From Methylobacter sp. (GTDB lineage Bacteria > Pseudomonadota > Gammaproteobacteria > Methylococcales > Methylomonadaceae), in assembly GCA_030679035.1 (NCBI GenBank), contig JAUXTH010000149.1, positions 62,001 to 126,000 on the forward strand: a stretch of 64,000 nucleotides of DNA, written 5' to 3'. This document shows positions 13,452 to 62,769 of the stretch, in pieces. The notes under the pieces were generated by a model that was not told the DNA's origin, ran no database searches, and worked only from the letters and a program-made list of their open reading frames with translations. The translations under genes and the position numbers were made by a program. Numbering within the stretch: position 1 is the first letter of the stretch; each line of letters opens with the position of its first letter.

Positions 13452-13452
13452 A

Positions 13453-13602: not shown

Positions 13603-13614
13603 AATAAGAAAAAT

Positions 13615-36751: not shown

Positions 36752-37230
36752 GGGTTCTGCTTTCCCCATCGATAGGGAATTCCAGCATCGTCAATTGGCC
36801 GCAAATCGCTTTCGGTAGGGTCATGAGGCAAATCGGCGCAATTTGCCAATAGCGCAGAACTATCCCCCAAGCATGCAAAACCATACCAAAGACCTGGCGG
36901 AATCCGCAACCGCAAGTAGGCATCCGGACGACCAAGCTCCAATTCCTGCAACTGCCCCTTCGTGGCAGAATCTTCGCGATCGTCATATATCACCATCCGG
37001 ATACGCCCGACAGGTACTGCCAGATTCTGGGTCTGGGCGCGATGGCGTTTCCAGGCTTTGATGCCACCGGGCAATACTTCGGAAAAGTAGCACTCCCCGA
37101 AACGTGTAAACTCCGGTGTGTCACTACGCATCATGTGTAACACTGCACCACGATCATCGCATATCTGGCGCAATTCGGTGAGAGTGACGCCTTCTATCTT
37201 CACTCCATTTGCGGTTGCCTTATTTGTCAT
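36748..37230 (-). CDS. RmlC-like dTDP-4-dehydrorhamnose 3,5-epimerase family cupin
   Basis: 160 residues from ATG 37230 (ATGA overlap with the rfbG stop). It follows RmlC: CYFSEVLPGGIKAWKRHRAQTQNLAVPVGRIRMVIYDDRE and the lip region LRIPPGLWYGFACLGD. As the neighbours make CDP-4-keto-6-deoxyglucose, it probably epimerises that intermediate or a later keto sugar rather than dTDP-linked sugars. The usual H-D catalytic dyad is not obvious to me, so activity is unproven. Confidence 0.8.
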   Translation of the reverse strand: MTNKATANGVKIEGVTLTELRQICDDRGAVLHMMRSDTPEFTRFGECYFSEVLPGGIKAWKRHRAQTQNLAVPVGRIRMVIYDDREDSATKGQLQELELGRPDAYLRLRIPPGLWYGFACLGDSSALLANCADLPHDPTESDLRPIDDAGIPYRWGKQNP

Positions 37231-38327: not shown

Positions 38328-38331
38328 CGTG

Positions 38332-39102
38332 TTAGCCTTTCATCCATGGCGCTTGGCCGCTTTCCCAAAGCGACTGTAACGCATCGCGGTCGCGAATAGT
38401 GTCCATGCACTGCCAGTAACCCGAATGCTCATAAGCCATCAATTGTCCGTCACGCACCAGACTTTCTAGTGGCGATTGCTCCAGCACCGTGGCATCGTTT
38501 TCTAGGTAGTCAAAAATGCTGGGCTCAAATACAAAAAAACCCCCGTTGATCCAACCTTCCCCGGACTGCGGCTTTTCTTTGAAGTTAATCACTTGACTAT
38601 TTCCAATATGCATTCCGCCAAACCGGGCTGAAGGTCGAACAGCCGTCACTGTCGCAATTTTTCCATGAGCACGATGAAAAGCCAGCAACGCCTCCATATC
38701 CACATCGGAAACGCCATCCCCATAAGTCACCATAAATGCGCCTGATGAATGAAGATGCGGCTTCAGTCGCAATAATCGACCACCGGTCATGCTGTTGGCA
38801 CCCGTATCAATCAACGACACATGCCAGTCTTCAGCCATGGGATTCAAGTAATTAACATTGCCTGTTTTCAAATGCACTGTCAGATCACTGAGTCTCGCAT
38901 GGTAATTCAAAAAATAGTCCTTAATCACATCACCCTTGTATCCAAGCGCAAGCGTAAAGTCCCTGAAACCATGCCGTTCATAGCTTTTCATGATATGCCA
39001 GAGTATGGGGCGACCACCAATTTCCACCATGGGTTTTGGCTTGATCTGGGTTTCTTCTGCGAGACGAGTACCCAACCCGCCGCATAGAATTACGGTTTTC
39101 AT
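38332..39102 (-). CDS. rfbF: glucose-1-phosphate cytidylyltransferase
   Basis: 256 residues, typical length. VILCGGLGTRLAEETQIKPKPMVEIGGRPILWHIM is the RfbF/DdhA nucleotidyltransferase start, YGDGVSDVDME the metal-binding region and GEGWINGGFFVFEP the sugar-binding site. It makes CDP-glucose for the adjacent rfbG and starts a five-gene coupled cassette ending with the GT2 at 34647. Confidence 0.96.
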   Translation of the reverse strand: MKTVILCGGLGTRLAEETQIKPKPMVEIGGRPILWHIMKSYERHGFRDFTLALGYKGDVIKDYFLNYHARLSDLTVHLKTGNVNYLNPMAEDWHVSLIDTGANSMTGGRLLRLKPHLHSSGAFMVTYGDGVSDVDMEALLAFHRAHGKIATVTAVRPSARFGGMHIGNSQVINFKEKPQSGEGWINGGFFVFEPSIFDYLENDATVLEQSPLESLVRDGQLMAYEHSGYWQCMDTIRDRDALQSLWESGQAPWMKG

Positions 39103-44896: not shown

Positions 44897-45655
44897 TCAG
44901 ACCGGTGCCTGCATTTTCATGAGCTGCTCGACTTTGATCAAATCTTCCGGCGTATCGACAGCATAAGAACTATGCTGAGTCGGCACCATGTGTACTTTTA
45001 AGCCATGCTCAAGAACACGCATCATGTCAACTGATTCTGCAATCTCTAAAGGGGTAGGTGCCAGACTGGTATATTGCAGCAAAAAATCCCGGCGAAAAGG
45101 GATAATGCAGACTTGCTTGCCCATGGGTACCTCCAGCATCTTGGAGCGTGTAGGAATCGGTTCCCGTGAAAAATACAGCGCATTGTTTTTCAGGTCACAT
45201 ACCACTTTGATGCAATTACGGTCTTCAAATTCCGTAGTGGACTCGATTCTGCCCAGCAGATTAACGATCTGGAGATCAGGATTTTCCAGCATGGGATTGA
45301 CCGCTTCAGAAATCATGTCTGGGTGGATCATCGGCTCATCACCTTGAACCATAACCACGATGTCATAGCGCGTACCGTTGGCTTGTTCCAGCTTAAGCAA
45401 CGCTTCAGCACAACGATCCGAAGCGCGCTCATGCTCATTACTGGTCATCACGGCGACCCCGCCAATGGATTCTATGTAGTCATAGATTTCCTTGTCGCAG
45501 GTAGCCACTGCCACCAAGTCCAAAGAGGATGACTGTGCCACTCGCTCATAAACGTGTCCAATCATAGGCTTACCAAGGATCGGAGCCATCGGTTTGCCGT
45601 GGAAGCGACTGCTGCCCATACGTGCAGGGATAAGTGCGAGGATTTGCGTTGCCAT
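44897..45655 (-). CDS. KdsB-like CMP-ulosonate cytidylyltransferase
   Basis: 252 residues. LALIPARMGSSRFHGKPMAPILGKPMIGHVYERV is the KdsB/acylneuraminate cytidylyltransferase start in its KdsB form (GSSR...GKP), and VMVQGDEPMIHPDM holds the metal-binding Asp. It should couple CMP to a 3-deoxy-2-ulosonic acid. Differences from housekeeping KdsB and the company of an HpaI-type aldolase suggest a special ulosonate. It lies two bases after the SDR gene. Start fragments of a second such gene lie at 49359-49448. Confidence 0.88.
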   Translation of the reverse strand: MATQILALIPARMGSSRFHGKPMAPILGKPMIGHVYERVAQSSSLDLVAVATCDKEIYDYIESIGGVAVMTSNEHERASDRCAEALLKLEQANGTRYDIVVMVQGDEPMIHPDMISEAVNPMLENPDLQIVNLLGRIESTTEFEDRNCIKVVCDLKNNALYFSREPIPTRSKMLEVPMGKQVCIIPFRRDFLLQYTSLAPTPLEIAESVDMMRVLEHGLKVHMVPTQHSSYAVDTPEDLIKVEQLMKMQAPV

Positions 45656-45657
45656 TG

Positions 45658-46371
45658 TTATTCACCACCTGAAACTGAAATTACCTGACCAGTAATATAA
45701 GAATTAATATCCGACCCAAAAAACCCAACAGCCTTAGCCACCTCGTCTGCAGACGCCATACGCTGCATGGGTATCAACCTAATACGGTTGATCATATTTT
45801 TTGATGGGTCCGAACCGTGCAAACGGGTATTTGTCACACCCACTCTTAACACATTAACCAAAACGCCTTTTGACGCCCAATCCTTGTAATCAGAAGGCAA
45901 AAACTCAAGGGCATGCTTGCTTAATGAATAACCAAAACTTTCCTTTCCTCCACCAAACTTCACTCCTATACTCCCAAGATGGACAATCCGCCCCCATCCT
46001 CGTTTAGCCATCGCAGGCACCATGTCCCGCATTAACAATAAACCGGGCAAGGTATTAACAGAGAAATGCTCAAGAATATTGTTAGCGGTTATATCTGAGA
46101 ACTTAAGCGGATTTAGAGTAGCCACACAATTTATCATGCTATCACAAGCAAGATACTGATCTTTAAACTTGGCTAGAATCCGTTCCAGATTAGCCGTATC
46201 TGCAAAATCGATTCTTAACAACTCAATCGCGCCAGAGTTTTGCTCAGCAAGCTCAGCAAGCTCGGGGCGCATGGTTCTGTAATGGGCCAAAACATCCCAC
46301 CCTTCAGACAGGTAATAGCGACATACAGCCAAACCAATGTCAGAGCTTGCGCCAATGACAAACACCCTCAT
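45658..46371 (-). CDS. classical SDR oxidoreductase
   Basis: 237 residues, FabG-sized. VIGASSDIGLAV (cofactor motif), NCVATLN, GSIGVKFGGG and YSLSKHALE (Tyr/Lys active site) are present and the end ITGQVISVSGGE is typical. It overlaps the radical SAM gene upstream by ATGA and is two bases from the KdsB-like gene. It probably oxidises or reduces the sugar acid of that pathway. Confidence 0.88.
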   Translation of the reverse strand: MRVFVIGASSDIGLAVCRYYLSEGWDVLAHYRTMRPELAELAEQNSGAIELLRIDFADTANLERILAKFKDQYLACDSMINCVATLNPLKFSDITANNILEHFSVNTLPGLLLMRDMVPAMAKRGWGRIVHLGSIGVKFGGGKESFGYSLSKHALEFLPSDYKDWASKGVLVNVLRVGVTNTRLHGSDPSKNMINRIRLIPMQRMASADEVAKAVGFFGSDINSYITGQVISVSGGE

Positions 46372-47258
46372 GATCGCTTCTCTACTTTACTCCAGGCCTG
46401 AACATGTGAACTCCCCATTAATGTGCCCTTAACATCACACGCATTACAAGGTTTAAACTCGCGGTTTCCACTTGCCAGCATTTTACGCGCCACAAGAAAA
46501 GCATCACCCAACCAAATATCGCGAAAGGACTGATTTTTCATATTACCTACAATTTTCCTCTTGCCCCAGTCATGCGGGCATAGCAATACATCCCCCAGAT
46601 AATCCATAAAAAAAGTATAATGAGGATAGTGACATGGCAATTTAAGAGCCTTTGTTGGTGCAGGTATCGAATACGCCGCCTCAGTCATCATGCCCGCGCG
46701 ATTATTTATAGTGATACCAAAGCTCTCCGACTCCGGCAAGTAACGGTGACGAATCACAAATTGATCTTTTCTTAACCCCGCTTCGAGACACATTTCTTCA
46801 AAACGATCAGCATCTTCACGGCTGTCATAGACACTAATAAGAATTGTAGATAGGCCGGACTCAAATAATCGCTTTAATCGATCAATATTTAGCACATCAC
46901 CATTTGTCACCATTTCAAGTCGCGCAAGCGGGATATGCTCATATAAGGTCTTAATATGGCTATATATATTTTTGTCCAGCATCGGCTCTACAAAACCAGA
47001 AAAGAGCACAATTCCAGAATATGAGAATTCCGCCAACTCTGATGCCAACTTCTTTACCAGCTCGGGAGCTATAAACTCCTTTATATCGGGATACTGTGGA
47101 TCACTACGTGGGCAGAATACACATTTACGATTACAGGTACCAGATTCACTGATCTCCACTACAGAAGGAAGCGGCCAACCGTCTACAAGATGTAGGGCCT
47201 CGTTAACGATGTCGGACTTCCTGTCAATTGCAGGATCCCAAAAGAAATCAGCATTCAT
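46368..47258 (-). CDS. radical SAM/SPASM-like protein
   Basis: 296 residues. SGTCNRKCVFCPRSDP carries the CxxxCxxC cluster motif (about residues 42-49), LFSGFVEPMLDKN the SAM-binding region, and a C-terminal cysteine set (PCHYPHYTFF, LLCPHDWG, CNACDV) suggests an auxiliary SPASM-type cluster. Radical SAM enzymes of this sort carry out dehydrogenation or C-C/C-H chemistry. A role in making the unusual sugar acid of this region is inferred. Confidence 0.85.
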   Translation of the reverse strand: MNADFFWDPAIDRKSDIVNEALHLVDGWPLPSVVEISESGTCNRKCVFCPRSDPQYPDIKEFIAPELVKKLASELAEFSYSGIVLFSGFVEPMLDKNIYSHIKTLYEHIPLARLEMVTNGDVLNIDRLKRLFESGLSTILISVYDSREDADRFEEMCLEAGLRKDQFVIRHRYLPESESFGITINNRAGMMTEAAYSIPAPTKALKLPCHYPHYTFFMDYLGDVLLCPHDWGKRKIVGNMKNQSFRDIWLGDAFLVARKMLASGNREFKPCNACDVKGTLMGSSHVQAWSKVEKRS

Positions 47259-47288
47259 AATTTATGTACCATATTTAGTTGTTGAAGC

Positions 47289-47547
47289 TCAGTATTTCGC
47301 GGATTCAGATCCCTGATAGTAACGTGAAAACGCCTCGGCTGGAGGCCGATGACTTACAATCAAAGTCTGGCAGGCGAGACACTCCTTGTAAGAGAAATTC
47401 TGCTTTACAAATGAATGTATACCTTCGGAACAACAAGCGGGACAAACTACATCGTCTCTCTGTCCCATTGAGGTATTCCTTCGTATCTCGTTCAGTAAGT
47501 CGAAGATATTCATCGAATATCTGTTTTGGGCGAATTTCTTCTTTCAT
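47289..47547 (-). pseudogene. frameshifted, truncated class I methyltransferase (N-terminal fragment)
   Basis: Minus-strand frame from ATG 47547 encodes KEEIRPKQIFDEYLRLTERD and then loses sense. A second frame picks up at about 47455 with DDVVCPACCSEG, SYKECLACQTL (zinc-ribbon cysteines), SHRPPAEAFSRYYQGSESAKY and a stop. This is the N-terminal zinc-ribbon of a family of SAM methyltransferases. The stop falls where family members continue KYW, so the catalytic domain is gone. One indel and one truncation separate it from a working gene. Confidence 0.7.
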
Positions 47548-47555
47548 AGGGCTAC

Positions 47556-49256
47556 CTAAGGGATCAATGTCATGAACTGTTCTTCAGTCAAGCGCAAAGG
47601 ACTGAGAAAATAAGAGTCTTTGATACTCGCTCTGCAGCCTGTACCGCTCGCAATTACCGTTCTTAGTTTTTGCTCCTGATTTTCTCCAAGAAATTCACGT
47701 CTGTAGATATCCATGAACTTCAGTAATATCGCATCACCTTCCGCCCCCTCACGTTCGGCGCATTCGATTTCGGCCCAGTCGGCTTTGGGGAAATAACAAT
47801 ACAGGGGCAGTACCCGCATCAAACCATCGATTTCTTGTTGACTGAGGTAAGGCGCAGGCATTCTCAGCAAGGAGCTGGCTGTAGTATGTTCGGTAATAAT
47901 TGAATCGTCTAGCCAACCGTTCCGCACAGCAACATCCCTGAGTCGAGTCCCATGGTAAGGAGTAAAAATGCTTACAGTCAGCGAGTCATAGCCGCCAATA
48001 CTGCGAACCAACTCCACAGTATCCATCACTAAAGCTCGTGTTTCGCCGGGGAAACCGATGATCAGGTTTAGCGCAAAAGGGATTTTTGATTCCTCAATAA
48101 CCGAAAATGAATCGATTATTTGTTTGTTGGTAACCTGCCTAAGCAATACCTTTTTGCGGTATTCTTCGTTACCGCATTCAATCCCAAATGAAATGCGATA
48201 TGCCCCTACCTCCTTAAGGCGCTGCATTTCCGGCAAGCGGCAGTTTTCTGGTCGAGTGTTGAACCAGAACGGGATTTTGAATTCTTCATACATGTCGCAG
48301 AATGCAAAAATTTCACTCTTCGGACGCGCCAAAAAACTGTCGTCAATGAAATAAAGAAATTCGGGATTTAACCGCTCAATAAGGGCGGCAATCTCGTTGC
48401 GAACACAGGGAATCGGTTTCCTGCGAAGAAAATTTCCCTGATCACCTGCGATCGCTTGATCCACCCGCATCGGAGAATTGCAATAGGTACATTTATAAGG
48501 ACATCCGCGATAGGTTTCGATCGGAACAGTCCGGAAAATACGCCCACCCATCGGTCGATAAAACCTGCGGCTATCGAATAAGCTGAAGTCGGGATGCTGT
48601 AAAGCAATATCCACAAGCGCGCCTTTCGGATTCTTTACCAGTTGGCCATTAACCTTGACCCACGTACCCGGAATCCCAGTGACAGGCTGACCTTGTCGTA
48701 TTGATTCGCAGAAAAGACTAATAGTGTCCTCGCCTTCCCCTATTCCAATCATTTTTACTTCGTCTACAGAAATGCACCGGTCTGGTGCCGCTGTCGGAAA
48801 TACCCCGCCGACGATATGCGGAATATCAAGGTCTGCCACGGCTTTAAGAAGGCCGATGCACTGCCGGAACGCGTCCTCAACCACAGAAAAGATCATGACA
48901 TGCGGCTGGAATTCCAGAACAGCTGCACGAAAATCGGAATACACGTCTGTGGTTCTGACGGTAACGCCCAAGTCGCGCTCGTAGTCAAACTCGCGAGCGT
49001 GCGCCAGCTTTACACGATTTTCCGGGCTCACTGTTGCGTCTTCCTCAAGATAAGCCGTCGTCTCGAACAACGACAACTGATACCCGTTGTCCTTCAATAT
49101 TCCAGTAAAAATTGCTATCGACAATGGGGGAACCAACATCAGAGGGAGGTTGGGGTATACCAGCAGTACTCGGAACTGGGCCGGTTCGCACGGTTCGACC
49201 GCTACAAACGGCGTTTCGCCCCTTTGATCACTCAAAGTAGATTTAACTTGTATCAC
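47556..49256 (-). CDS. B12-binding-domain radical SAM protein
   Basis: About 566 residues from a GTG at 49256 with an AGAGG site. The open frame reaches a GTG at 49310. The N-terminal cobalamin-binding-like domain (VLLVYPNLPLMLVPPLSIAI through HIVGGVFPTAAPD) is followed by the radical SAM core with YRGCPYKCTYCNSP (CxxxCxxC), FIDDSFLARP and LNLIIGFPGE. Such enzymes methylate unactivated carbons or rearrange sugars. A C-methylated or rearranged sugar acid is a possible product. The DXHXXG motif of true B12 binding is not evident. Confidence 0.88.
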   Translation of the reverse strand: MIQVKSTLSDQRGETPFVAVEPCEPAQFRVLLVYPNLPLMLVPPLSIAIFTGILKDNGYQLSLFETTAYLEEDATVSPENRVKLAHAREFDYERDLGVTVRTTDVYSDFRAAVLEFQPHVMIFSVVEDAFRQCIGLLKAVADLDIPHIVGGVFPTAAPDRCISVDEVKMIGIGEGEDTISLFCESIRQGQPVTGIPGTWVKVNGQLVKNPKGALVDIALQHPDFSLFDSRRFYRPMGGRIFRTVPIETYRGCPYKCTYCNSPMRVDQAIAGDQGNFLRRKPIPCVRNEIAALIERLNPEFLYFIDDSFLARPKSEIFAFCDMYEEFKIPFWFNTRPENCRLPEMQRLKEVGAYRISFGIECGNEEYRKKVLLRQVTNKQIIDSFSVIEESKIPFALNLIIGFPGETRALVMDTVELVRSIGGYDSLTVSIFTPYHGTRLRDVAVRNGWLDDSIITEHTTASSLLRMPAPYLSQQEIDGLMRVLPLYCYFPKADWAEIECAEREGAEGDAILLKFMDIYRREFLGENQEQKLRTVIASGTGCRASIKDSYFLSPLRLTEEQFMTLIP

Positions 49257-49358
49257 GTTATCACCTCTTTCTGCGTCACCGCAACTAAATAAAAAAGACA
49301 TCTTGTGCACTGCCAGCGACTACATTACTGCGTCCCCTAGACAGGATATTCGTTGATA

Positions 49359-49448
49359 TCACTCCTGAATTGGAGCCATCGGCTTACTGGGAAACTGCCT
49401 GTTACCGGTACACACAGGGATAATGGGCAAATTTCTTCTCCTTATCAT
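49359..49448 (-). pseudogene. 29-codon 5' fragment of a second KdsB-like gene
   Basis: An ATG at 49448, in an ATGA overlap with the aldolase stop, opens a short frame MIRRRNLPIIPVCTGNRQFP then SKPMAPIQE and a stop. It aligns with MATQILALIPARMGSSRFHGKPMAPILGK of the cytidylyltransferase at 44897. The DNA similarity is also visible. It is the truncated start of a cytidylyltransferase gene that was once coupled to the aldolase. Confidence 0.75.
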
Positions 49449-50218
49449 GGTGCTGCAACCTCCGTTGGCACAGACGCAGAATGATTCAAAAACACGGCAT
49501 CTATTGAATACGCAATAAACCGATATCCCTCGGCAATTCGTTGTTTCAACGCATCGCTGTCTGGCATGACCACATGCACACCACATGGGATATGATGTTG
49601 ACCACAAAGGGTGCGGATGCGATCCATCGCCGCGACAAATTCCGGCGACTCAAACTTTGCGGTGAATCCCATGGAAGCGGACAAATCATACGGACCGATC
49701 AGAATCGCATCCAGCCCCTCGACTTGGAGAATCTCTTCCAGATTCTCGACAGCACAGATATGCTCGATCATTGCAACCAACAAAGGTTCCTGAGCCTCTT
49801 CACGATACGCATCAAAATGCTTGCCAAACAGATTGGCACGGGAAAAACCCACGCCGCGAGTACCCGCTGGCGGCCAGCGACAGGCGTCACGCACCTGAGT
49901 CAATTGTGCCGCAGTTTCGACCATGGGAACGATCACCCCTCCTGCTCCGGCATCCAGCGCCTGTTTGCAATCCTTGGTGTGTCCCTGCGCCAAGCGCGCC
50001 AAGGGTAAGGTTCCACCCAATTCCAAGGCGCGAAAAAGGTCAGGCAACTGGTGGACGGCAATCGCCCCATGCTCCATATCAACCGCCACCCAATCATAGC
50101 CGGCCTGACCCATAATTTCAGCCACGGAAGGATGGGGAATCTGCATCCAGCTACCTATGGAGTGCCCACCGTTACGCAGACGATCGCGGATTTCTCGAAT
50201 TGCAGTTAATCTATTCAT
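49445..50218 (-). CDS. HpcH/HpaI-family aldolase
   Basis: 257 residues. GSWMQIPHPSVAEIMGQAGYDWVAVDMEHG, GVIVPMVETAAQ, VAMIEHICAVENLEEI (metal-binding Glu) and ILIGPYDLSASMG (Asp ligand) are the class II pyruvate aldolase signatures. Members cleave or form 2-keto-3-deoxy acids from pyruvate and an aldehyde. Here, next to a HAD phosphatase (8-base overlap) and KdsB-like genes, synthesis of a ulosonic acid is the likeliest role, in place of a KdsA-type synthase. Confidence 0.9.
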   Translation of the reverse strand: MNRLTAIREIRDRLRNGGHSIGSWMQIPHPSVAEIMGQAGYDWVAVDMEHGAIAVHQLPDLFRALELGGTLPLARLAQGHTKDCKQALDAGAGGVIVPMVETAAQLTQVRDACRWPPAGTRGVGFSRANLFGKHFDAYREEAQEPLLVAMIEHICAVENLEEILQVEGLDAILIGPYDLSASMGFTAKFESPEFVAAMDRIRTLCGQHHIPCGVHVVMPDSDALKQRIAEGYRFIAYSIDAVFLNHSASVPTEVAAP

Positions 50219-50876
50219 GATTTAGATTGTTAAACATTGGGCCGGAATACTGTCCCTGTAGAGTTTGATTAAGCGGGGTACGCCGCAACAAAAAAGGTAC
50301 GTGATTTTTTGTTGCAGCCTTGAAATCGGACTCAGTATCGCCCACCATCACAGCATGCTCAGAGAGACATTGCATTTGTTGTAACACGCTCTTTATCGCT
50401 GTGGCTTTCGGTATTGGCGCGCCATACACCTCCTGAAAACAGTGCGTTAATTGTAACGCATGCAAAATCTGCTGGATCTCTTGCTGGGGGGTAGCCGTTA
50501 CCAATATGAAGCGCTGCTTAATATGATTAGCAAGTAGGTATTCACGCACACCAGGCACCCAAGGCGCATCGATCACTGCCTGCATCACTAAACTAGCAAA
50601 TTGATCACAAAACTTCTGCACTTGATCCGCTGAGGCACTCTCACCAGCCCAATCAAGGTAAATAGGCATCTTTTCATATCGAGAGATGCCGCCATGCGCT
50701 TCGTGGTGTTGCCGAACCCGTTCAGCCACCCCCTCTCCATAGGACATAAAAAGTCGTTCATAACCTTCCGACTTCACTTCAACCGAATCTTTTATGACGC
50801 CGTCAAAATCCCAAAAAACCACATGCGCCTTTTTTAACAACGCTTCTGACAGACTTAACTCATCAATATTCGACAC
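50211..50876 (-). CDS. HAD-superfamily phosphatase
   Basis: 221 residues starting with GTG. VVFWDFDGVIKDSVEVK is HAD motif I (DxD), VTATPQQE motif II, and MVGDTESDFKAA motif IV. A helical cap (about 30-105) puts it with phosphoglycolate phosphatase-like enzymes. It probably removes phosphate from the aldol product before CMP activation, the role KdsC plays for Kdo. It overlaps the aldolase gene by eight bases. Confidence 0.88.
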   Translation of the reverse strand: MSNIDELSLSEALLKKAHVVFWDFDGVIKDSVEVKSEGYERLFMSYGEGVAERVRQHHEAHGGISRYEKMPIYLDWAGESASADQVQKFCDQFASLVMQAVIDAPWVPGVREYLLANHIKQRFILVTATPQQEIQQILHALQLTHCFQEVYGAPIPKATAIKSVLQQMQCLSEHAVMVGDTESDFKAATKNHVPFLLRRTPLNQTLQGQYSGPMFNNLNHE

Positions 50877-50891
50877 ATTTCACTCACACTG

Positions 50892-51755
50892 CTACTTTTT
50901 ACGCCGCCAGATCTGATTAAACACAGAAGTGCCCTCAAACATTTCGGAATGATGTTTCCCCAGCAATTCCAGTCCAGCCGCGCTGAGATACTGGAATGTA
51001 TCAGCAGATTGCTGTTCGAATTCCTCATCGATCTCGATCAGCACCCCACGAACTTTGGACAAAACCGACATGCCGCCCTTAAGGATCAAGTGCTCGATCC
51101 CATCAACATCCATTTTGATATAGTCCGGTTGCGAAATGTTTAGCAGTGACATGGCGTCGTCCATGGAAAGACCTACGGTACTAAATTCAAACACTTTATT
51201 TAGTGGCGTGCCATCCCATGTATACGATTCGCCAAAAGTCGATATGGCCCCCCCCCAATACGTCATCGACATATTCAGTGTGCTGATGCTGAGATGATCT
51301 GATAGCGGGAGAGGAACAATCACAACCTTTTCGGTTAAGTCATTCAGCAAAATATTTCTGGCCAGTAATTCGAGATTAAACACCGAGGGTTCAAAAGCAT
51401 ACACCTTGCATCCACGCCGTTTAGCCGCATAGCAGGAATACAGACCGACATTGGCACCAATATCCCAGACCACCGAACCTTGCTCCATGCCATCCACCCA
51501 TTCCAGAGTCTCGGGCTCCTTAATAGAAAAGGTGTCGGCACGCGCCCAACTGCACTCGTTTGGAACTGCAAATACGAGTTCAACGCCCTCGTGAGTCACC
51601 TTGCGCGTGCGCTGCATAAGGACGCTTAGAAACTCTTCGAACAAAAAGCGGCCGAGACGACTCATCATAATAACATCGAGCACAAAAGCCATGGTGGCTC
51701 TGTATAACCGTCTGATTAACCTTCTGAGTTTCTTCATCATTTGTTCCTTCATCAT
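50892..51755 (-). CDS. FkbM-family methyltransferase
   Basis: 287 residues. VWDIGANVGLYSCYAAKR is SAM motif I, YAFEPSVFNLELLARN motif II, and KMDVDGIEHLILKGGMSVL the FkbM-specific acidic motif. The N-terminal 50 residues are basic and amphipathic. The gene shares one base with the SDR stop (TAATG). It probably O-methylates the sugar of this pathway or a chain end. Confidence 0.9.
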   Translation of the reverse strand: MMKEQMMKKLRRLIRRLYRATMAFVLDVIMMSRLGRFLFEEFLSVLMQRTRKVTHEGVELVFAVPNECSWARADTFSIKEPETLEWVDGMEQGSVVWDIGANVGLYSCYAAKRRGCKVYAFEPSVFNLELLARNILLNDLTEKVVIVPLPLSDHLSISTLNMSMTYWGGAISTFGESYTWDGTPLNKVFEFSTVGLSMDDAMSLLNISQPDYIKMDVDGIEHLILKGGMSVLSKVRGVLIEIDEEFEQQSADTFQYLSAAGLELLGKHHSEMFEGTSVFNQIWRRKK

Positions 51756-52648
51756 TAATTTCTACTTTCATTATTTAAATTGAGTGAAGCACGCACCTCG
51801 CCAATCAACTCCAACAACCCTTGCCCCAAATCCACGTGCATCGGCGGAACAAACTTGCGCCCAAGTTTAGGCTGGTAAGCGTAAGGGGTACGCACATAAT
51901 GCCCCGCATAGCTCCCTTCGATAAATTCCACCGAATCGGGCATACCCAGTATTTCGGCCAGCATCTTAAGCATGTCCAACACTCGCATCGGTTCTTGCCC
52001 TGTTAATACGACATGCTGGTTACGGAACTGTTCGCCGAGGGCTGCCACACTTGCGCGGGCTGCATCTTCTACATGGATGTATTCGCGCATGGCCTCCGGT
52101 CTGCCTTCGTAACTGACCCGATCAGACTCTAACGCCTTTTTGACGATACGCCACAAGCCGTTGTGATGGTCGGAACGCGGGCCATACAAAGAACCGTAAC
52201 GAAGCACCGTGTAATCCAGCCCATAACGGCGCTGGTATTCCTCAACAAACTGTTCGGCCGCATGTTTGCTGCAACGATAAAAGCCGCCCTCACGACTATG
52301 CACATAGACAGTGCTGGCATAGACATAACGCTTTACCCCATGGCGGCGGCAGGCCTCAAGTACCATGGTATTACCAAGAATATTGACCTTGACTGTTTCC
52401 AGCGGCTTATCCTGCGCTTCATTTAGGTCGGCAATGGCGGCAAAGTTATAGACGGCTTCACAGCCCACGATTGCATCATTCAACGCCACCTCGTCGAGGA
52501 TATCCGCCTCAACCATTACCTGCTCAGGACGCCTCCAGGGAGATAAAGTCCGATCGTATATAGACACCTGATAACCGGCCTCAGACAGTTGGTCGCAAAC
52601 ATGCGACCCCAGAAATCCAGCACCGCCAATCACGCAGACTTTCTTCAT
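51755..52648 (-). CDS. NAD-dependent sugar epimerase/dehydratase (extended SDR)
   Basis: 297 residues. VIGGAGFLGSHVCDQLSEAGY (NAD site), YNFAAIADLNEAQ, ASTVYVHS and YRCSKHAAEQF with catalytic Tyr/Lys, then LRYGSLYGPRSD. This is the GalE/UXS-like family. It ends one base before the next gene and may supply the aldehyde precursor of the ulosonate or another nucleotide sugar. Confidence 0.85.
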   Translation of the reverse strand: MKKVCVIGGAGFLGSHVCDQLSEAGYQVSIYDRTLSPWRRPEQVMVEADILDEVALNDAIVGCEAVYNFAAIADLNEAQDKPLETVKVNILGNTMVLEACRRHGVKRYVYASTVYVHSREGGFYRCSKHAAEQFVEEYQRRYGLDYTVLRYGSLYGPRSDHHNGLWRIVKKALESDRVSYEGRPEAMREYIHVEDAARASVAALGEQFRNQHVVLTGQEPMRVLDMLKMLAEILGMPDSVEFIEGSYAGHYVRTPYAYQPKLGRKFVPPMHVDLGQGLLELIGEVRASLNLNNESRN

Positions 52649-52649
52649 T

Positions 52650-53633
52650 TCACAGCCCTTGTCTTTGTACTTCGTATTCTCCTAGTGGCACCTGCCCTTG
52701 CAAGGCTTGACCGGAAAGAAAACGTACAGCCTCTTCAGTGGCCTCAATTTCCATACGTGTACGGCAATCAACTGACATGGACCCCATGTGTGAAGTTAGC
52801 AGACAACGATCTATATCAGCAAGCTCGCCAACATAGGGCTCCTGCTCAAACACATCAATGGCGGCACCACTTAAATGTCCATCACGTAACACTTGAGCCA
52901 GATCATGCTCATTCACGATACCGCCTCTTGAAATGTTGATGATCATTGCATCTGACTTCATTTGAAGGAGATGCTCACGCCGAATCATGTTTTTTGTATG
53001 AACTGTAAGAGGAACATGCAGGCTAATAATATCGGCGTGACGGTATATCTCATCTTTACCTACCCATTCAAGCTTTAGCTCAGGGGCAATTTTGGGGTTG
53101 GGCTGGATATCGTTCACCAGAATGCGCGGGCTACCGAACCCGGCGAGACGACGCAGCACGCGCCCACCAATGCGGCCAGCACCAATGATCCCGATAGTAA
53201 CCTCAGGAATACGACGTCCAAAGTGACGATACCATTCGCCGCGATGCATCTGGGCATTGGCGACATGTACGGACCGCAGTAGCGAAAGCATAAGACCGAT
53301 AGTCAGCTCTGCAACTGCCGGCGCTGGGGCATCAGGTGTATAACTGACTTTAATTCCTCGTCTCTCCGCGGCCAAAAGGTCTACTCCATCCAGCCCAATG
53401 CCAACGCGGGAGATCAATTTCAGCCGACTGGCTTGAGCCATCACCTTATCGGTAATGAGCTCCGTTCCAGCAATGAGCACATCGAAATCGGAAATCATGT
53501 CTGCCAACTCATCCTCTTTGAGCTTGCGGCCTAGGGGGTTGACTAAATAGTCGATACCGGCAGCTTCTAACAATTCGAGTGGCAGGCGGTTTTTGTCGCC
53601 GAATGGTACTGTGGTAATAAGCGCTTTTGCCAT
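52650..53633 (-). CDS. D-isomer-specific 2-hydroxyacid dehydrogenase (SerA-like)
   Basis: 327 residues. ISRVGIGLDGVDLLAAERRGI, PAPAVAELTIGLML, IGIIGAGRIGGRVLRRLAGFG (NAD motif), NISRGGIVNE (catalytic Arg), FEQEPY (Glu) and LTSHMGSMS (His) are complete. It oxidises a 2-hydroxyacid, or reduces a 2-ketoacid, with NAD(H). In this context it may act on the sugar acid or supply a hydroxyacid building block. It is the first gene of the aldolase operon after a 290-base gap. Confidence 0.9.
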   Translation of the reverse strand: MAKALITTVPFGDKNRLPLELLEAAGIDYLVNPLGRKLKEDELADMISDFDVLIAGTELITDKVMAQASRLKLISRVGIGLDGVDLLAAERRGIKVSYTPDAPAPAVAELTIGLMLSLLRSVHVANAQMHRGEWYRHFGRRIPEVTIGIIGAGRIGGRVLRRLAGFGSPRILVNDIQPNPKIAPELKLEWVGKDEIYRHADIISLHVPLTVHTKNMIRREHLLQMKSDAMIINISRGGIVNEHDLAQVLRDGHLSGAAIDVFEQEPYVGELADIDRCLLTSHMGSMSVDCRTRMEIEATEEAVRFLSGQALQGQVPLGEYEVQRQGL

Positions 53634-53924: not shown

Positions 53925-54350
53925 CTATGTTTCATTCCGGGCGATCTGCTCCCGCACTTTGACTAATTTGACAGGCACACGCATAGACAGACCAAGGTTT
54001 AGCGCCCCCTTGAGTACCGATCCAGCGGCCAACACCACCCCTTCCTCCAATACTGCTCCAGGCAATATCGTGTAATTTGAATAAATCGGACAGTGATCCT
54101 TGATCACCACAGGAGCAATGGCAATTGTTTCATATTACAATCCAGAATTGGAAACTGTCAAGGCATTGCAATTCAGCGAAATCATAACATGGTCACCGAT
54201 CACAATCAGACCGTTGGTATCCAGATAGGAATTTCGATTAATCTGGAAATTTTTACCTACCACTAGATTGGATAGATATACTGTAAACACACCGGTACGA
54301 ATAATGGCCTTTGAATAATCGGCAAGTTGAACTCCGGCCAGCCGCCACAA
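53925..54350 (-). pseudogene. LbH-fold acetyltransferase with in-frame stop
   Basis: One minus-strand frame from 54350 to 53925 reads IRTGVFTVYLSNLVVG, FQINRNSYLDTNGLIVIGDHVMISLN, then a TAA at 54137-54135, then YETIAIAPVVIKDHCPIYSNYTILPGAVLEEG and VVLAAGSVLKGALN. This is a hexapeptide acetyltransferase split by a nonsense codon. Upstream, about 20 codons towards 54423 appear to continue in another frame, so the N-terminus is also damaged. An ATG overlapping the large transferase's stop suggests it was once coupled to it. Confidence 0.75.
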
Positions 54351-54422
54351 AATGTGGTCTTATGACGGAACAACTCAAAAGATTAGGCAACCTTAACCGC
54401 TTCGCTCCATGCCCGTTTTGCA

Positions 54423-57400
54423 TCATTCTTTTATTATCCGCCTACAGGAAAGATCCGGAAGTTGACCGAGTTCAGTCCAGAACCTGTGGGAAGCCAAGCC
54501 GTCGAACTGATAAAAATAGCGACTAAGCGTATTGGTAATTTCTGGCGTCAGATCAGTCCGCGGATCACTATTATCCATCCCAGAAATGATCTGAAGTAAT
54601 TCTTGCTGGTTATTAATATACTTAACCCCTGGCTCATCTTCAACCATAGGGGGGTATTCCGAGGCCATTACTCGCACCGAGGGTACTCCTGCAAAGAAGG
54701 ACTCAAGCGCTATGCCTGAAAAGCCGCAAATCACCAGACTAGCACTCTCTATCAACTGAGTAGTGGATTTCGATGAATCGAATTCTATTGTAAGAACAAT
54801 ATCATTGACACGTATTAATTCGTTAATCCATTCCTGACTAACGGTAGGATGCTTGGATAGCACCACCCGCCATCCCGGCAACACCTGCAAACCGGAAAAC
54901 ATTTTTAATATAGCCTCCTCATCCCCTGTTGAGGGGGCAAGCAACAGTACACGGTTCGCATTACCCTGATGAGTGATAGCCCGGCCATGTCCATACAAAC
55001 GATACAGACTATCGTATTTGAGACAGCCTATGATTCGAATTCTTTCAGCCGGATAAAACTCTGAGAGTATATCCACGTATTGTGAGCCGTGGACAAAGTA
55101 GTAATCCGGCATGGGCGAAATACAACGCGTATCGTCTGGATCTGTGTGATTGAATTCGGAAAAGCGGTGATAATACGACATCTTGTTTTTATATGCCGTG
55201 GCATGCTGAATTGATATCCAGCGATGTTGGGGCGAATGCTTACGCGATAAAAAATAGACCGATCGCATTGTTGCCAATATTTCGCCATAAGTAATTAAAG
55301 TCTTAGTGCCGCCACTATTTTCCAGCCAACGTTCACACATGGCCGCGTGGCTCAGGCTCCGCGGGAGAATAGCGAGAAAGCTTTTCTGCATTTCAAGAAG
55401 CAAAATATCAGAGAATTCTGCATGTCCAATACGTACACCCTGACGGCACAAAGGCTTGATGAATGTTTTGAATTTAAAATAATTCTTGATTAGGGATATA
55501 TGGATCTCGAAGATATCATGAAGAAAAAAATACCTATCGAGAATTTCCACATCACGCTGCAGCTTATCTGCAAAGCCATCTATTTTCCGCCACCATAACC
55601 AAGGATGAAGAAAATCGGCTTTTTTAAAATTCAAATGGATAATATAGGCTGAAATAAAGCCGTGTTTGCGGTCGTCTAAAGGCGCCTGCTCATACATCCG
55701 ATCGCAAAAACCTTCCCTATTAATCAAATTGCATTCAAAGCTATGAAACCAGACACGCTCATTACCATGCCTCGCGCCAACTGGCAAAAATCGCAGCAAC
55801 AGCCATTTACCCAGATCCTTTAGCAGATTCTTGAACATGCCAAAATAAACACTAACATCGGAACAGGGTTCGATGTGGTTGCCCGGCAAACCGCGCAACC
55901 TGTCATGCAACTCCTTGTACCAGGCATAATCAAAATACATATCCTTGACAATCAAGTTGCTCGCCCACCATAGAGGAAAGCCGCGCCATTGTAGTTCGTT
56001 CTTGATACCTGAACGATCTGCCCACAGTGCCGCCCAACTGGTATAAAGCTCACGAGTTTGCTCCCATGACCACTCGGCGTGTTGACATTCTGTGCCGAAT
56101 AACAGCGCTCGATCATCTATCACTGAACCCTCCGGGCGCATAAGCAATTCATACAACTCATCCGGGGTGCGCGCCACCCCACCCTCGGCAATGACGACTG
56201 CTGAAGCAATTTGCTCCGCACTATAACCATTGGCGACCGGCTCATAGATATAATAAGGGATGCCATGATAAGCCGCCTCGCCAATTCCCGAGCTAATCCC
56301 TCCGATAACCCTATGTGCAAAAGCCACGTGATCGGAAAAGCGGCCCTCCAGAATGGTCACCCTATCGGTATAGCCAGCGTTCTCCAGCACGAGTAAAAGC
56401 CACTCTTTTTCTGTGTGATGCTTAATCTTGATTGCCAGCCTTTCCAGGCCCGCATCCATCGCGGCCTTCAACGCTTCCAGCAATGTATTGGGCCGTGAAC
56501 CATAGCGCCCGTTGATACTAAGATCATACGGAACCCAAGTCATGATGATCGCATCAAAACACTTCTCTACCTTTTCATGCAAAATATGCGCATCAAGGAT
56601 GGGCGGGAAAACAGTTACAACCTCTTGTGCCTCCGACTTATTTTTCAACAGCCGATGCTGGTGCTGGCAACCTACGGCATAAATACGGTCGAATATCACC
56701 GATCCCACGGAGGTATTGCCTATACGTTTGGTCACATCGAATACGAGATAACCATCAACCAACCAGGAAACCTTAATACCCCTGGCTCGCGCAATATAGG
56801 CTGCAATCAAATAGGGCTCATAAAACTCCGAACCCACCACTAACTCATTAGGACGATAAGAGTCCAGCATATCCTGATAAGTGGCTACAGTCCTGACAAA
56901 ATAATCACGGTAAAGCTGATATCGATGGTTCATGAACCCAGACAGAAGTTCTATCAACTCACCATCCCAACATACATCTATGCGCTGCAAAACCTCGGCT
57001 AACCAATGTGGTTCGAACATGGCACAAAAGTCCGATGGCACACTTCGCTCAGCTTCCAATAGATACCTGCGCGGCAGTGTGCGCGAGTACACCCCCTTCC
57101 ACGGCTTACGCGAGTTAACACTAAGCCACCAATTCTGTCGGGTGGCAAAATGTAACAAGCTCCAATCGCTTAACGCTAACGTTTTATTGCTTAGCAATCT
57201 CAGAAACGGCGTCTGCAGGTTCCGCAGGAGATTTGCACGAGAATCAACCGGCGGCATAACCAGGGGGCGATCAGATAAACTACAAAGTGGAACTGGAGCA
57301 CCCTGTCGATGCCCTGGGTCATAAATCTGAACGCGATGCCCAAATTTTTTTGCAATATTCAGAAATATTGCGGACTCATTGCAGGAGACATGAACACAGC

Positions 57401-57731
57401 CATAGTGCTCACACCAATACTTAAGCGCAAAGTATTCCCGACAAATACCCGCAATATTAATCCACACTCCAACCGAGAATGCGTCTGCAATTGACACTTG
57501 ATCAATGACACAAAGATCCCTGCCTTCCTCGTCCCTGTGCCAGTTAAAACTAAGGAAATTGATCGCGTCATCAACGGAGTCGGCATCATTGCTGTAATTG
57601 AAAAAGCAGGGGGCGGCCTCGTCCAGCAGCAGTGGAAGATAGTCCTCATGAGCGATGATCTGTGCATCCGAGCCATGATGTTGACGAACCCAGTCAAGGT
57701 CATCACGATGGTTAAGAAGAAATGTTTTCAA
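54423..57731 (-). CDS. 1102-residue tandem surface-carbohydrate transferase
   Basis: A very large protein starting at a TTG (57731) with no nearby ATG. Each half ends in a similar GT-B/CDP-glycerol-transferase-like domain: residues about 390-520 hold IKIKHHTEKEWLLLVLENAGY, ISSGIGEAAYHGIPYYIYEP, and residues about 955-1080 hold LLLAPSTGDEEAIL, VVLSKHPTVSQEW, ICGFSGIALESFFAGVPSVRV. Both repeat the SG(I)xxEAxxxGxP pattern of CPS/Kdo/glycerophosphate transferases. It may carry two glycosyltransferase activities, possibly for the ulosonate made next door. Sugar and acceptor are unknown. Confidence 0.7.
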   Translation of the reverse strand: MKTFLLNHRDDLDWVRQHHGSDAQIIAHEDYLPLLLDEAAPCFFNYSNDADSVDDAINFLSFNWHRDEEGRDLCVIDQVSIADAFSVGVWINIAGICREYFALKYWCEHYGCVHVSCNESAIFLNIAKKFGHRVQIYDPGHRQGAPVPLCSLSDRPLVMPPVDSRANLLRNLQTPFLRLLSNKTLALSDWSLLHFATRQNWWLSVNSRKPWKGVYSRTLPRRYLLEAERSVPSDFCAMFEPHWLAEVLQRIDVCWDGELIELLSGFMNHRYQLYRDYFVRTVATYQDMLDSYRPNELVVGSEFYEPYLIAAYIARARGIKVSWLVDGYLVFDVTKRIGNTSVGSVIFDRIYAVGCQHQHRLLKNKSEAQEVVTVFPPILDAHILHEKVEKCFDAIIMTWVPYDLSINGRYGSRPNTLLEALKAAMDAGLERLAIKIKHHTEKEWLLLVLENAGYTDRVTILEGRFSDHVAFAHRVIGGISSGIGEAAYHGIPYYIYEPVANGYSAEQIASAVVIAEGGVARTPDELYELLMRPEGSVIDDRALLFGTECQHAEWSWEQTRELYTSWAALWADRSGIKNELQWRGFPLWWASNLIVKDMYFDYAWYKELHDRLRGLPGNHIEPCSDVSVYFGMFKNLLKDLGKWLLLRFLPVGARHGNERVWFHSFECNLINREGFCDRMYEQAPLDDRKHGFISAYIIHLNFKKADFLHPWLWWRKIDGFADKLQRDVEILDRYFFLHDIFEIHISLIKNYFKFKTFIKPLCRQGVRIGHAEFSDILLLEMQKSFLAILPRSLSHAAMCERWLENSGGTKTLITYGEILATMRSVYFLSRKHSPQHRWISIQHATAYKNKMSYYHRFSEFNHTDPDDTRCISPMPDYYFVHGSQYVDILSEFYPAERIRIIGCLKYDSLYRLYGHGRAITHQGNANRVLLLAPSTGDEEAILKMFSGLQVLPGWRVVLSKHPTVSQEWINELIRVNDIVLTIEFDSSKSTTQLIESASLVICGFSGIALESFFAGVPSVRVMASEYPPMVEDEPGVKYINNQQELLQIISGMDNSDPRTDLTPEITNTLSRYFYQFDGLASHRFWTELGQLPDLSCRRIIKE

Positions 57732-59214: not shown

Positions 59215-60165
59215 CTAGCCAAGAATTTTTGAGGCAACCACCCCGTGTTCAGCTCTTAGTAGTGGAATACCTCGCAGAACTGGATAAACCAATCCTGAAC
59301 TCTCACTCACAAATACGTCTCCCAGATCACTCATCGGTGTATGCGTAAGTGGGCAAAGCCAAGCTGGAGCCACGCCTTCTTGAGTGACTCCACTTTTTTC
59401 AATCAGAATCAGGCCGCTAGGATTAAGGGGGTTGCTTATGTGATCGAGCAGGCGGTAGTCATTAACTTTCGCGCCTAAGCGCTCAGCCGTTTCCTTGAGT
59501 CCACGAACATAGCCATGGCTACGCATGCGGGATTGCGCATTCTCGTTTGCCAATTCGTAAATCGGTTCGACCAATACCACGGCGCGGCGCGCGACACGCA
59601 TTAATTCTCGAATAGCATCCTCTTCGCGCCCGCCATTCGGTTCTATCGAGTGCGAGGTATAAACGACATCCACGCTCTCATCCTCTAAAGGGATATCAAA
59701 AAGATCTGCCACGAAAAGTCGCGCAGAAACTTCTTTTTCTGCAAGCCAGCCCTGTCCCTCCGTGCAACGCGACCAACTAATATCTAATCCCAATGCATGA
59801 CTGGGTGTGTTGGTTAAACGTTGCACTACTCCGGCAAGCGTCGTTGCTTCGCCACAGCCCACTTCAAGAAGTGTCCCCCCGTTGGTAAGTAAGGGGTCAA
59901 GAATTTCAGCCAACTGCGCACACCAGCGCGAATTCGCTTCCGGGTTTTCACGTACACCCGCAACATAAGAACCCGCCTGAAGATCATAGGCAATTAGCGT
60001 AGCAACAACCGAATTATTACCAATAGTACCGGCCATTTGACGAGCGTATTCCATGGCATTTTCACCACGGGCATAAGCAGCACGCATACCTAAAATCAAA
60101 TGGCGCAGTTCGTCGGAATTGGATCGAAGCGTATTATCAGATTCTGCATTCATTGATTTATTCAT
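59215..60165 (-). CDS. SAM-dependent methyltransferase with C-terminal zinc-ribbon-like domain
   Basis: 316 residues. GGTLLEVGCGEATTLAGVVQRL is motif I, GLDISWSRCTEG motif II, SVDVVYTSHSIEPNGGREEDAIRELMRVARRAVVLVEP motifs III-IV. The C-terminal WLCPLTHTPM...SGLVYPVLRGIPLL resembles a Trm112-like segment with only one clear cysteine left. It lies 26 bases after pseI and probably modifies the nonulosonate or its glycan. Confidence 0.82.
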   Translation of the reverse strand: MNKSMNAESDNTLRSNSDELRHLILGMRAAYARGENAMEYARQMAGTIGNNSVVATLIAYDLQAGSYVAGVRENPEANSRWCAQLAEILDPLLTNGGTLLEVGCGEATTLAGVVQRLTNTPSHALGLDISWSRCTEGQGWLAEKEVSARLFVADLFDIPLEDESVDVVYTSHSIEPNGGREEDAIRELMRVARRAVVLVEPIYELANENAQSRMRSHGYVRGLKETAERLGAKVNDYRLLDHISNPLNPSGLILIEKSGVTQEGVAPAWLCPLTHTPMSDLGDVFVSESSGLVYPVLRGIPLLRAEHGVVASKILG

Positions 60166-60191
60166 AGGATATTTTTCAATACAGTTTTAAC

Positions 60192-61247
60192 TCACACCAC
60201 TAAATGCCAGTCCAATGCCGTCCCGCGTTTCACATCCCGCTTCACGGTTTTGCCTATCATATGTTCCAAATATTTTGTCGGCAAACCCAGCCCCGGCCGA
60301 ATTGCCCGTAGATTGTCTTTGGTCAAAAAATCACCGGCCTTCATATCTTGCACCACATACAGCGAGCGGCGGAATTGCATGGATTTTTTCTCAGCTTCGG
60401 AAGGGCCATAGCTCACCTGCCCCAATGCCTGCCAGGCGCGTTCCGTTTCCACCACCAGCTGTTCCATCTCAGCGGGCTCCATGGAAAATGTGCTATCCAC
60501 GCCGCCCTCGGCGCGACTGAGGGTGAAGTGCTTTTCGATAACAGAGGCGCCCAATGCCACACTGGCTACCGACACACCGATACCCATGGTGTGGTCGGAA
60601 AGACCCACTTCGCAGCCGAACAGTTCACGCAGGTGTGGAATGGTCAGAATATTGGTGTTCGCCGCCGTGGCGGGGTAAGTGCTGGTGCACTTGAGCAAAA
60701 TCAAATCCTTGCAGCCCGCTTCGCGAGCGGCACGCACAGTTTCGTCCAGCTCGGCTACCGTGGCCATGCCAGTGGAAATAATCAGCGGCTTGCCTGTAGC
60801 CGCCACGCGACGGATCAACGGCAGGTCGGTGTTCTCAAATGAGGCGATTTTGTAGCACGATACATCGAGACTTTCAAGAAAGTCCACTGCGGTGTCGTCA
60901 AATGGAGTACTGAATGGAATGATGCCCAATTCACGCGCCCTATCAAAAATCGGCTTATGCCATTCCCACGGGGTATAAGCTTCGCCGTAAAGTTTGTAAA
61001 GAGACGTGCCCGCCCACAAACTATTTGGATCGCTGATATGAAACTCACGCTCATCCAAATCAATCGTCATGGTGTCGGGCGTGTAGGTTTGGATTTTTAG
61101 CGCATGGGCGCCCGTCTTAGCCGCCGCCTCGACAATTTCAAGTGCTCGTTGCAGCGACTGGTTATGATTGCCGGACATTTCGGCGATGATAAAAGGAGTG
61201 TATCCTCGACCGATTGGCCGGTCAGCAATTTTGAATGCTTCACTCAT
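60192..61247 (-). CDS. pseI: pseudaminic acid synthase
   Basis: 351 residues from ATG 61247. A TTG at 61253 overlapping the previous stop is the alternative. PFIIAEMSGNHNQSLQRALEIVEAA, ALKIQTYTPDTMTID, CYKIASFENTDLPLI, STGMATVAELDE, LSDHTMG and EKHFTLSR follow the NeuB family in its PseI form, with the C-terminal SAF antifreeze-like domain (FRRSLYVVQDMKAGD, AIRPGLGLPTKY). It condenses the 6-deoxy-AltdiNAc product of PseG with phosphoenolpyruvate to give pseudaminic acid. Confidence 0.94.
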   Translation of the reverse strand: MSEAFKIADRPIGRGYTPFIIAEMSGNHNQSLQRALEIVEAAAKTGAHALKIQTYTPDTMTIDLDEREFHISDPNSLWAGTSLYKLYGEAYTPWEWHKPIFDRARELGIIPFSTPFDDTAVDFLESLDVSCYKIASFENTDLPLIRRVAATGKPLIISTGMATVAELDETVRAAREAGCKDLILLKCTSTYPATAANTNILTIPHLRELFGCEVGLSDHTMGIGVSVASVALGASVIEKHFTLSRAEGGVDSTFSMEPAEMEQLVVETERAWQALGQVSYGPSEAEKKSMQFRRSLYVVQDMKAGDFLTKDNLRAIRPGLGLPTKYLEHMIGKTVKRDVKRGTALDWHLVV

Positions 61248-61249
61248 TT

Positions 61250-62758: not shown

Positions 62759-62769
62759 TTCTATTTTGC

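Follow-up and report, generated by a model that had tools for sequence, protein, structure and literature searches.

We analysed a 64,000-nucleotide stretch of a Methylobacter sp. genome (contig JAUXTH010000149.1 of assembly GCA_030679035.1, positions 62,001 to 126,000; hereafter the window) that carries nine named genes on its minus strand (44897-53633), among them an HpcH/HpaI-type class II pyruvate aldolase and a cytidylyltransferase resembling KdsB of the 3-deoxy-D-manno-octulosonic acid (Kdo) pathway. The probable role of this gene set is to make and activate an acidic cell-surface sugar by a route unlike that of Kdo, and on balance we favour a modular route to a 2-ulosonic acid, other than Kdo, that is activated with cytidine monophosphate (CMP). 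The genes form a set with conserved co-occurrence, the KdsB-like proteins constitute a distinct subfamily, and the set is separate from the genes for Kdo itself. A search of the open-licence literature found no published description of this gene set in the titles and abstract openings among the matches listed, and it is apparently undescribed so far.

Gene linkage was tallied in 51 distinct cassette loci including the window, within 10 kb of the KdsB-like gene, using profiles and score thresholds that were built and chosen from these same loci. The aldolase (in the window 49445-50218; PF03328, 1.5e-35) was present in 45 loci and a D-2-hydroxyacid dehydrogenase of the PGDH/GhrB-like type (52650-53633; PF02826, 2.1e-50) in 44, followed by a HAD-superfamily phosphatase in 35, an NAD-dependent epimerase-like extended short-chain dehydrogenase/reductase (SDR) in 31, the methyltransferase that is broken in the window in 24, a 639-amino-acid protein in 21 and an FkbM-family methyltransferase in 19. 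Where both flanks reach 5 kb or more, the aldolase and the dehydrogenase were each found in 34 of 36 loci; the dehydrogenase is as conserved as the aldolase. In comparison, the aldolase was found in 0 of 18 cases within 5 kb (a shorter distance than in the tally) of the canonical KdsB of cassette-bearing genomes, the 18 being those with a canonical KdsB among 23 searched; one of these control loci, L115, had one weak dehydrogenase-family match (87 bits). The original prediction would have failed if the aldolase gene did not accompany cytidylyltransferases in other genomes, and these counts show that it does. Left outside the tally were L038-L040 (aldolase only), two further stretches of the same genome (L042 and L043), L033 (which repeats L066), L101 (the second of the two G303 contigs) and the canonical-type loci L041, L084 and L105. 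The recurring set was seen by protein clustering, by gene order and by family profiles, and because the same genes recur together across phyla, we consider the gene set to be beyond chance.

Linkage was also followed in whole genomes, where each count includes the genome chosen as the centre of its sample. In the window's own phylum, KdsB-like proteins were found at E ≤ 1e-60 in 6 of 398 genomes, and all six carried the aldolase at E ≤ 1e-45, a threshold passed by 8 of the 398 (hypergeometric 5e-12, relatedness ignored). All eight aldolase-selected genomes carry a cassette-type gene; the two are in the same locus in seven, and in G303 they lie on two contigs with ends consistent with the usual order. 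At E ≤ 1e-50 the KdsB-like protein was detected in 3 of 196 genomes of the Methanoperedens phylum and in 3 of 244 of the Phormidium phylum, one of the latter (L105) being of the canonical type. The aldolase directly adjoins the KdsB-like gene in several loci (e.g. L034, L047, L056, L061, L070 and L104).

The KdsB-like protein of the window (44897-45655; PF02348 (CTP_transf_3), 5.2e-47) belongs with the other cassette proteins to a Gln181/DM[ML]R subfamily. In an alignment of 52 cassette rows (51 distinct) with 18 canonical KdsB copies, Lys21, Asp106 and Asp234 are kept in 52 of 52 cassette rows, and the position of Asp234 is Asn in 3 of the 18 canonical copies. By matching the motifs GKP, QGDEP and VDT, these residues correspond to K19, D95 and D219 of A. 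aeolicus KdsB. Passages of one report on that enzyme give these three residues roles in catalysis and metal binding, and assign the binding of Kdo to the C-terminal domain (residues 100-210; PMC3149649). Judged by residue order and not by structure, cassette positions 181 and 210-211 would fall within the Kdo-binding region. Position 181 is Gln in 51 of 52 cassette rows (Ile in L085) and His in 18 of 18 canonical copies, while position 210 is Asp in all 52 and is followed by Met (50 rows), Phe or Ser where the canonical copies have Glu-Gln (18 of 18). LEQLR is read in every canonical copy and in 0 of 52 cassette rows, which mostly have DMMR or DMLR; the canonical sugar-side motif HxGxYxY/F is not kept in the cassette proteins, the window protein having QVCIIPF and VDMMR. 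In a quick tree, with long branches and few canonical rows, the cassette rows split from four canonical-type rows (SH-aLRT 95) with phyla intermixed. Read from these alignments, the KdsB-like proteins are a distinct subfamily with altered sugar-side residues. A further KdsB relative was observed in G168 (L099:11098-11952), about 5 kb from the cassette KdsB-like gene, with motifs LHVGLHAF and LELIR.

The cassette is separate from the Kdo genes in its own genome (4.79 Mb, 216 contigs). A canonical KdsB is encoded on another contig (TIGR00466, 315.8 bits vs 156.9 for the window protein) and a KdsA over cut-off on a third (G000:C155). The KdsB-like gene is thus not the genome's only KdsB, the other finding that would have refuted the original prediction. 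KdsA was over cut-off in 17 of 23 cassette genomes searched, and two of the other six had weaker matches. Neither KdsA nor a second full-length KdsB was found in Phormidium sp. FACHB-1136, in a Neomarinimicrobiota metagenome-assembled genome (MAG) or in both Methanoperedens genomes. Scanning contigs with the KdsB-like protein brought up 42 loci, one of them (L084) of the canonical type, from phyla including Pseudomonadota, Nitrospirota, Chlorobiota, Thermodesulfobacteriota, Campylobacterota, Cyanobacteriota, Bacteroidota and Omnitrophota, together with two Methanoperedens (archaeal) genomes. Beyond these, the archaeal genome G619, which has McrA, carries the aldolase and the KdsB-like gene on a 2.17-Mb contig, and in G928, from the cyanobacterial sample, the HAD, aldolase and KdsB-like genes lie together on a 1.64-Mb contig (locus L104); neither genome gave a KdsA match. 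Plasmid searches yielded weak records (9 KdsB-like, 3 aldolase), all below 60% identity. The distribution is best read as that of a modular cassette that has spread horizontally and is found in many phyla, archaea included.

Within the window, the open reading frames were assigned with Pfam and NCBIfam. From the dehydrogenase downward the genes are the epimerase (51755-52648; PF01370, 4e-44), the FkbM methyltransferase (50892-51755; PF05050, 1e-12, with TIGR01444 over cut-off), the HAD phosphatase (50211-50876; PF13419, 1.3e-13), the aldolase, a B12-binding radical SAM protein (47556-49310; PF04055 and PF02310 over cut-off), a radical SAM/SPASM protein (46368-47258; PF04055 and PF13186), its partner, a classical SDR (45658-46371; PF13561, 9.6e-32), and the KdsB-like gene. 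The gene identities of the original prediction agree with these matches, the FkbM methyltransferase being missing from its list. Its description of one run of coupled genes holds in part. The HAD and aldolase reading frames share 8 bases, ATGAATAG, the radical SAM/SPASM and SDR genes overlap by 4 bases and the epimerase and FkbM genes by 1, and spacing is 1 base between dehydrogenase and epimerase and 2 bases between SDR and KdsB-like gene; however, the run is interrupted by 134 bases from the aldolase to the B12 radical SAM gene and by 297 bases at 47259-47555. The second gap contains most of a class I methyltransferase remnant (47199-47544, minus strand), recognised by tblastn with relatives from L064 and L057. 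Of the 325 residues, tblastn recovered 3-31 and 35-118, in two frames, and none of the remainder; its end overlaps the start of the radical SAM/SPASM gene. By protein clustering its family is represented in 20 related loci.

Comparison of loci separates a core from exchangeable parts. HAD was present in 31 of 31 epimerase loci, and the two look like an exchangeable supply module. Nine of the 51 loci instead have a Gfo/Idh oxidoreductase without the epimerase, six of them with a SIS isomerase and five with a dehydroquinate (DHQ)-synthase-like gene; epimerase (31/51) and Gfo/Idh (9/51) never occur in the same locus (Fisher 6e-5, relatedness ignored). Since L102 has HAD together with Gfo/Idh, HAD alone is not exclusive to the epimerase module. 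L057 carries the Gfo/Idh module, yet its KdsB-like protein is nested among epimerase-module ones in the quick tree; the two modules may thus supply one shared core, made up of the dehydrogenase, the aldolase and the KdsB-like enzyme. A PF04199 'cyclase' gene occurs in 11 loci of both module kinds. In the archaeal locus L102 a transaldolase-like gene (by eye; 13037-13753) separates the aldolase from a SIS-like gene and may point to the source of the acceptor aldehyde.

The radical SAM genes appear to have a different status. Of the loci L033-L085, compared by their reading frames, a single one, L060 of a Chlorobiaceae MAG, also has the radical SAM/SPASM gene with a close SDR (79% and 73% identity); there the pair is placed between the aldolase and the KdsB-like gene as in the window; against loci other than L060 the window SDR had under 30% identity. 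The B12 radical SAM family was present in 7 of 51 loci including the window, the best relative (56%) being in L077. On the comparison with L033-L085 the pair was rejected as part of the core, and because it recurs in one other locus there and the B12 type in six others of the 51, we regard the radical SAM genes as most likely optional, accessory tailoring. The original prediction was right to group aldolase, HAD and KdsB-like genes, which stand together in L104 without the usual epimerase, dehydrogenase and radical SAM genes nearby; this locus also largely satisfies the check it proposed, a search for the trio in genomes lacking the rest, except that a different epimerase-like gene (110 bits to a second epimerase family) immediately precedes HAD. 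Its choice of core was not sustained, as the dehydrogenase belongs to the core and the radical SAM and SDR genes do not.

We infer the reactions, their order and the product as follows. Starting from a sugar that is phosphorylated or bound to a nucleotide, the HAD phosphatase and the epimerase would provide an acceptor aldehyde. The aldolase would join pyruvate (or hydroxypyruvate) to this hydroxy-aldehyde, giving a 2-oxo acid that closes into a ring, and the KdsB-like enzyme, with its altered sugar-side pocket, would put CMP on the anomeric hydroxyl. The dehydrogenase, whose closest solved relatives in the PDB are phosphoglycerate dehydrogenase and glyoxylate reductase, may make or adjust the 2-oxo acid; methyltransferases and, in the window, the radical SAM enzymes may modify the sugar before its transfer to a surface glycan.

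Five aldolase residues (D47, H50, R75, E152 and D178), which we take to be catalytic by mapping from E. coli HpaI, are each kept in 47 or 48 of the 49 rows of the alignment. HpaI, RhmA (YfaU) and GarL belong to the same Pfam family, with IGPADLS in YfaU vs IGPYDLS in the cassette aldolase. Their gene context is catabolic, whereas the cassette aldolase has a biosynthetic context, and it falls under every named equivalog cut-off, with 157.7/368.8 bits for HpaI, 135.7/441 for RhmA and 126.3/406.75 for GarL. Nonulosonic acid pathways (NeuB, PseI or LegI with NeuA or PseF) similarly yield CMP-activated ulosonic acids for surface glycans; they employ phosphoenolpyruvate (PEP)-dependent NeuB-type synthases and NeuA-type cytidylyltransferases. 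A bolder proposal, which we regard as doubtful, is a third, PEP-independent CMP-ulosonic acid route across the divide between bacteria and archaea. Here the dehydrogenase would convert glycerate (or phosphoglycerate, with HAD) to hydroxypyruvate, the aldolase would add this to a sugar aldehyde to give a 3-hydroxylated, non-deoxy ulosonic acid, and a cyclase-based module would mean a different acceptor in some lineages. The AMIE motif (hydroxyketoacid aldolase-like) was considered as evidence for hydroxypyruvate and dropped, because the Met is replaced by Gln in 19 of the 49 family rows.

Several observations weigh against an aldolase-based route to a non-Kdo sugar. The window KdsB-like protein passes TIGR00466 marginally (156.9-157.4 bits; cut-off 155.2) and two KdsB-named NCBIfam subfamily models clearly (NF009905, 303.4/255; NF003952, 273.1/193), although it misses NF003950 (220.7/234) and the equivalog NF003948 (185.4/281). 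The aldolase frame is interrupted by a stop in G219 and split in L065, and aldolase relatives in L038-L040 (about 38% identity; two at E ≤ 1e-45) had no KdsB-like gene in the DNA examined. In a sample of 151 genomes from the order, G016 and G009 pass the aldolase threshold of E ≤ 1e-45, and the 8.8 and 19 kb examined there contain no KdsB-like gene, so that the phylum and order samples together give 8 of 10 aldolase-selected genomes with the KdsB-like gene. The two exceptions score 4e-48 and 7e-48 and the linked aldolases of these two samples 3e-50 or below, but the linked archaeal aldolase of G619 reaches only 1.5e-44, and there is thus no clean cut-off. Conversely, no aldolase was detected at E ≤ 1e-15 in the genomes of two divergent loci, L085 (G570, a Chryseobacterium MAG) and L103 (G755, archaeal sample). 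Many of the locus genomes are MAGs, where absence of KdsA or KdsB may reflect incompleteness, and a McrA match is missing in one of the two Methanoperedens genomes. Finally, the job of the dehydrogenase is not obvious if the aldolase already yields the 2-oxo acid.

In the strongest alternative, the 2-ulosonic acid for the KdsB-like enzyme would come from an aldonic acid whose C2 hydroxyl the dehydrogenase oxidises, and the aldolase would act elsewhere, for example in making the aldonate or on a side chain. It arises because L085 and L103 pair the dehydrogenase with the KdsB-like gene in genomes without an aldolase match, and it accords with the equal constancy of dehydrogenase and aldolase and with profile and PDB matches that include GhrB and a probable 2-ketogluconate reductase. 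Nevertheless, L104 and L060, each with flanks of more than 5 kb, contain the HAD, aldolase and KdsB-like genes and no dehydrogenase nearby, and the direct adjacency of aldolase and KdsB-like gene in several loci also speaks against it; we judge this alternative unlikely.

Improbable, too, is that the cassette makes Kdo or a near relative by an aldolase detour, with the KdsB-like protein serving as a capsule-dedicated CMP-Kdo synthetase. The gene set resembles the Kdo pathway (KdsD-KdsA-KdsC-KdsB) in its order of chain extension to a 2-ulosonate, phosphatase and CMP activation and in the kept KdsB-like catalytic Lys, Asp and Asp. In favour of a CMP-Kdo synthetase, three KdsB-named NCBIfam models are over cut-off, and the best PDB match of the KdsB-like protein is 1gq9, which we take to be KpsU, the capsule-specific CMP-Kdo synthetase of E. 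coli; its gene is likewise an additional one of KdsB type within a polysaccharide locus. However, 1gq9 retains the canonical HVGIYAY and LEQLR, where the window protein has its own altered motifs and other cassette proteins also depart, and no aldolase is known to belong to the KpsU system. The cassette differs from the Kdo route in using a pyruvate aldolase where that route has the PEP-dependent KdsA, in its changed sugar-side residues and in a HAD without a KdsC model among its NCBIfam matches. KdsA and KdsB are already encoded separately in the genome, and the cassette occurs in archaea and in genomes without detected KdsA.

Less probable again is that the KdsB-like enzyme activates a cyclitol, a hydroxy acid or some other compound that is no glycosyl ulosonate, to be transferred as a phosphodiester, with the DHQ-synthase-like module making the ring. 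The replacement of the epimerase by Gfo/Idh, SIS and DHQ-synthase-like genes in several loci, and the mutual exclusion described above, would suit it, but the KdsB catalytic residues are kept, an aldolase of this family would yield a 2-oxo acid, and the DHQ-synthase-like gene is found in 5 of 51 loci only. That the genes merely travel together in a surface-polysaccharide island, serving unrelated sugars, is very improbable: the window does look like an extensive glycan locus that includes CDP-hexose-type and PseI-type genes (names by eye), but RfbG-type genes occur in 15 of 51 loci and PseI-type in 8 of 51, compared with 45 for the aldolase and 44 for the dehydrogenase, and the set is kept across domains in differing orders.

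If the aldolase-based route to a non-Kdo ulosonic acid is correct, then CMP-Kdo is not the product of such kdsB-like genes in Nitrospira, Chlorobium, Campylobacterota, cyanobacteria and archaea, whose glycans should contain an uncharacterised acidic sugar. The cassette would offer an aldolase-based alternative to PEP-dependent ulosonate synthases, usable in the laboratory, and the signature residues Gln181 and Asp210-Met211 would tell the two kinds of KdsB apart from sequence.

Other genes near the cassette were noted. The 639-amino-acid protein (L068:6710-8629 and 20 other loci) often comes right after the KdsB-like gene; it has no Pfam match, a PDB sequence search gave 0 matches, and it is a candidate transferase using the CMP-sugar. 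A GT2-like glycosyltransferase (by eye) stands between the KdsB-like gene and the dehydrogenase in L080 (1088-2698; a Chlamydiae MAG) and L103 (10268-11290), two loci with no aldolase in the DNA examined. In the window, a 1102-amino-acid surface-carbohydrate protein (54423-57731, minus strand), with Epimerase_2-like and TIGR04396-like matches below cut-off, is a weak candidate for a transferase; a PDB sequence search with it gave 0 matches, and it has a syntenic relative (67%) in the Polaromonas locus L061.

Upstream of the cassette, a PseI-type nonulosonate cluster (59215-63999, minus strand) runs on into L042. By eye it encodes PseI, a PseG/H-like fusion and an aminotransferase, along with a 679-amino-acid protein whose beginning looks like a cytidylyltransferase, which gives the impression that the same locus makes a second CMP-ulosonate. 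On the other side are cytidine diphosphate (CDP)-hexose-type genes (35615-39102, minus strand; RfbF-, RfbG-, RmlC- and DegT-like, by eye), and because RfbG-type genes lie near the cassette in the 15 loci given above, a CDP-sugar may be a frequent cassette partner. At 53946-54353 on the minus strand is the remnant of a left-handed beta-helix acetyltransferase (type by eye) whose gene start was not found; a longer relative in Polaromonas L061 shares 64% over residues 58-194 of 201.

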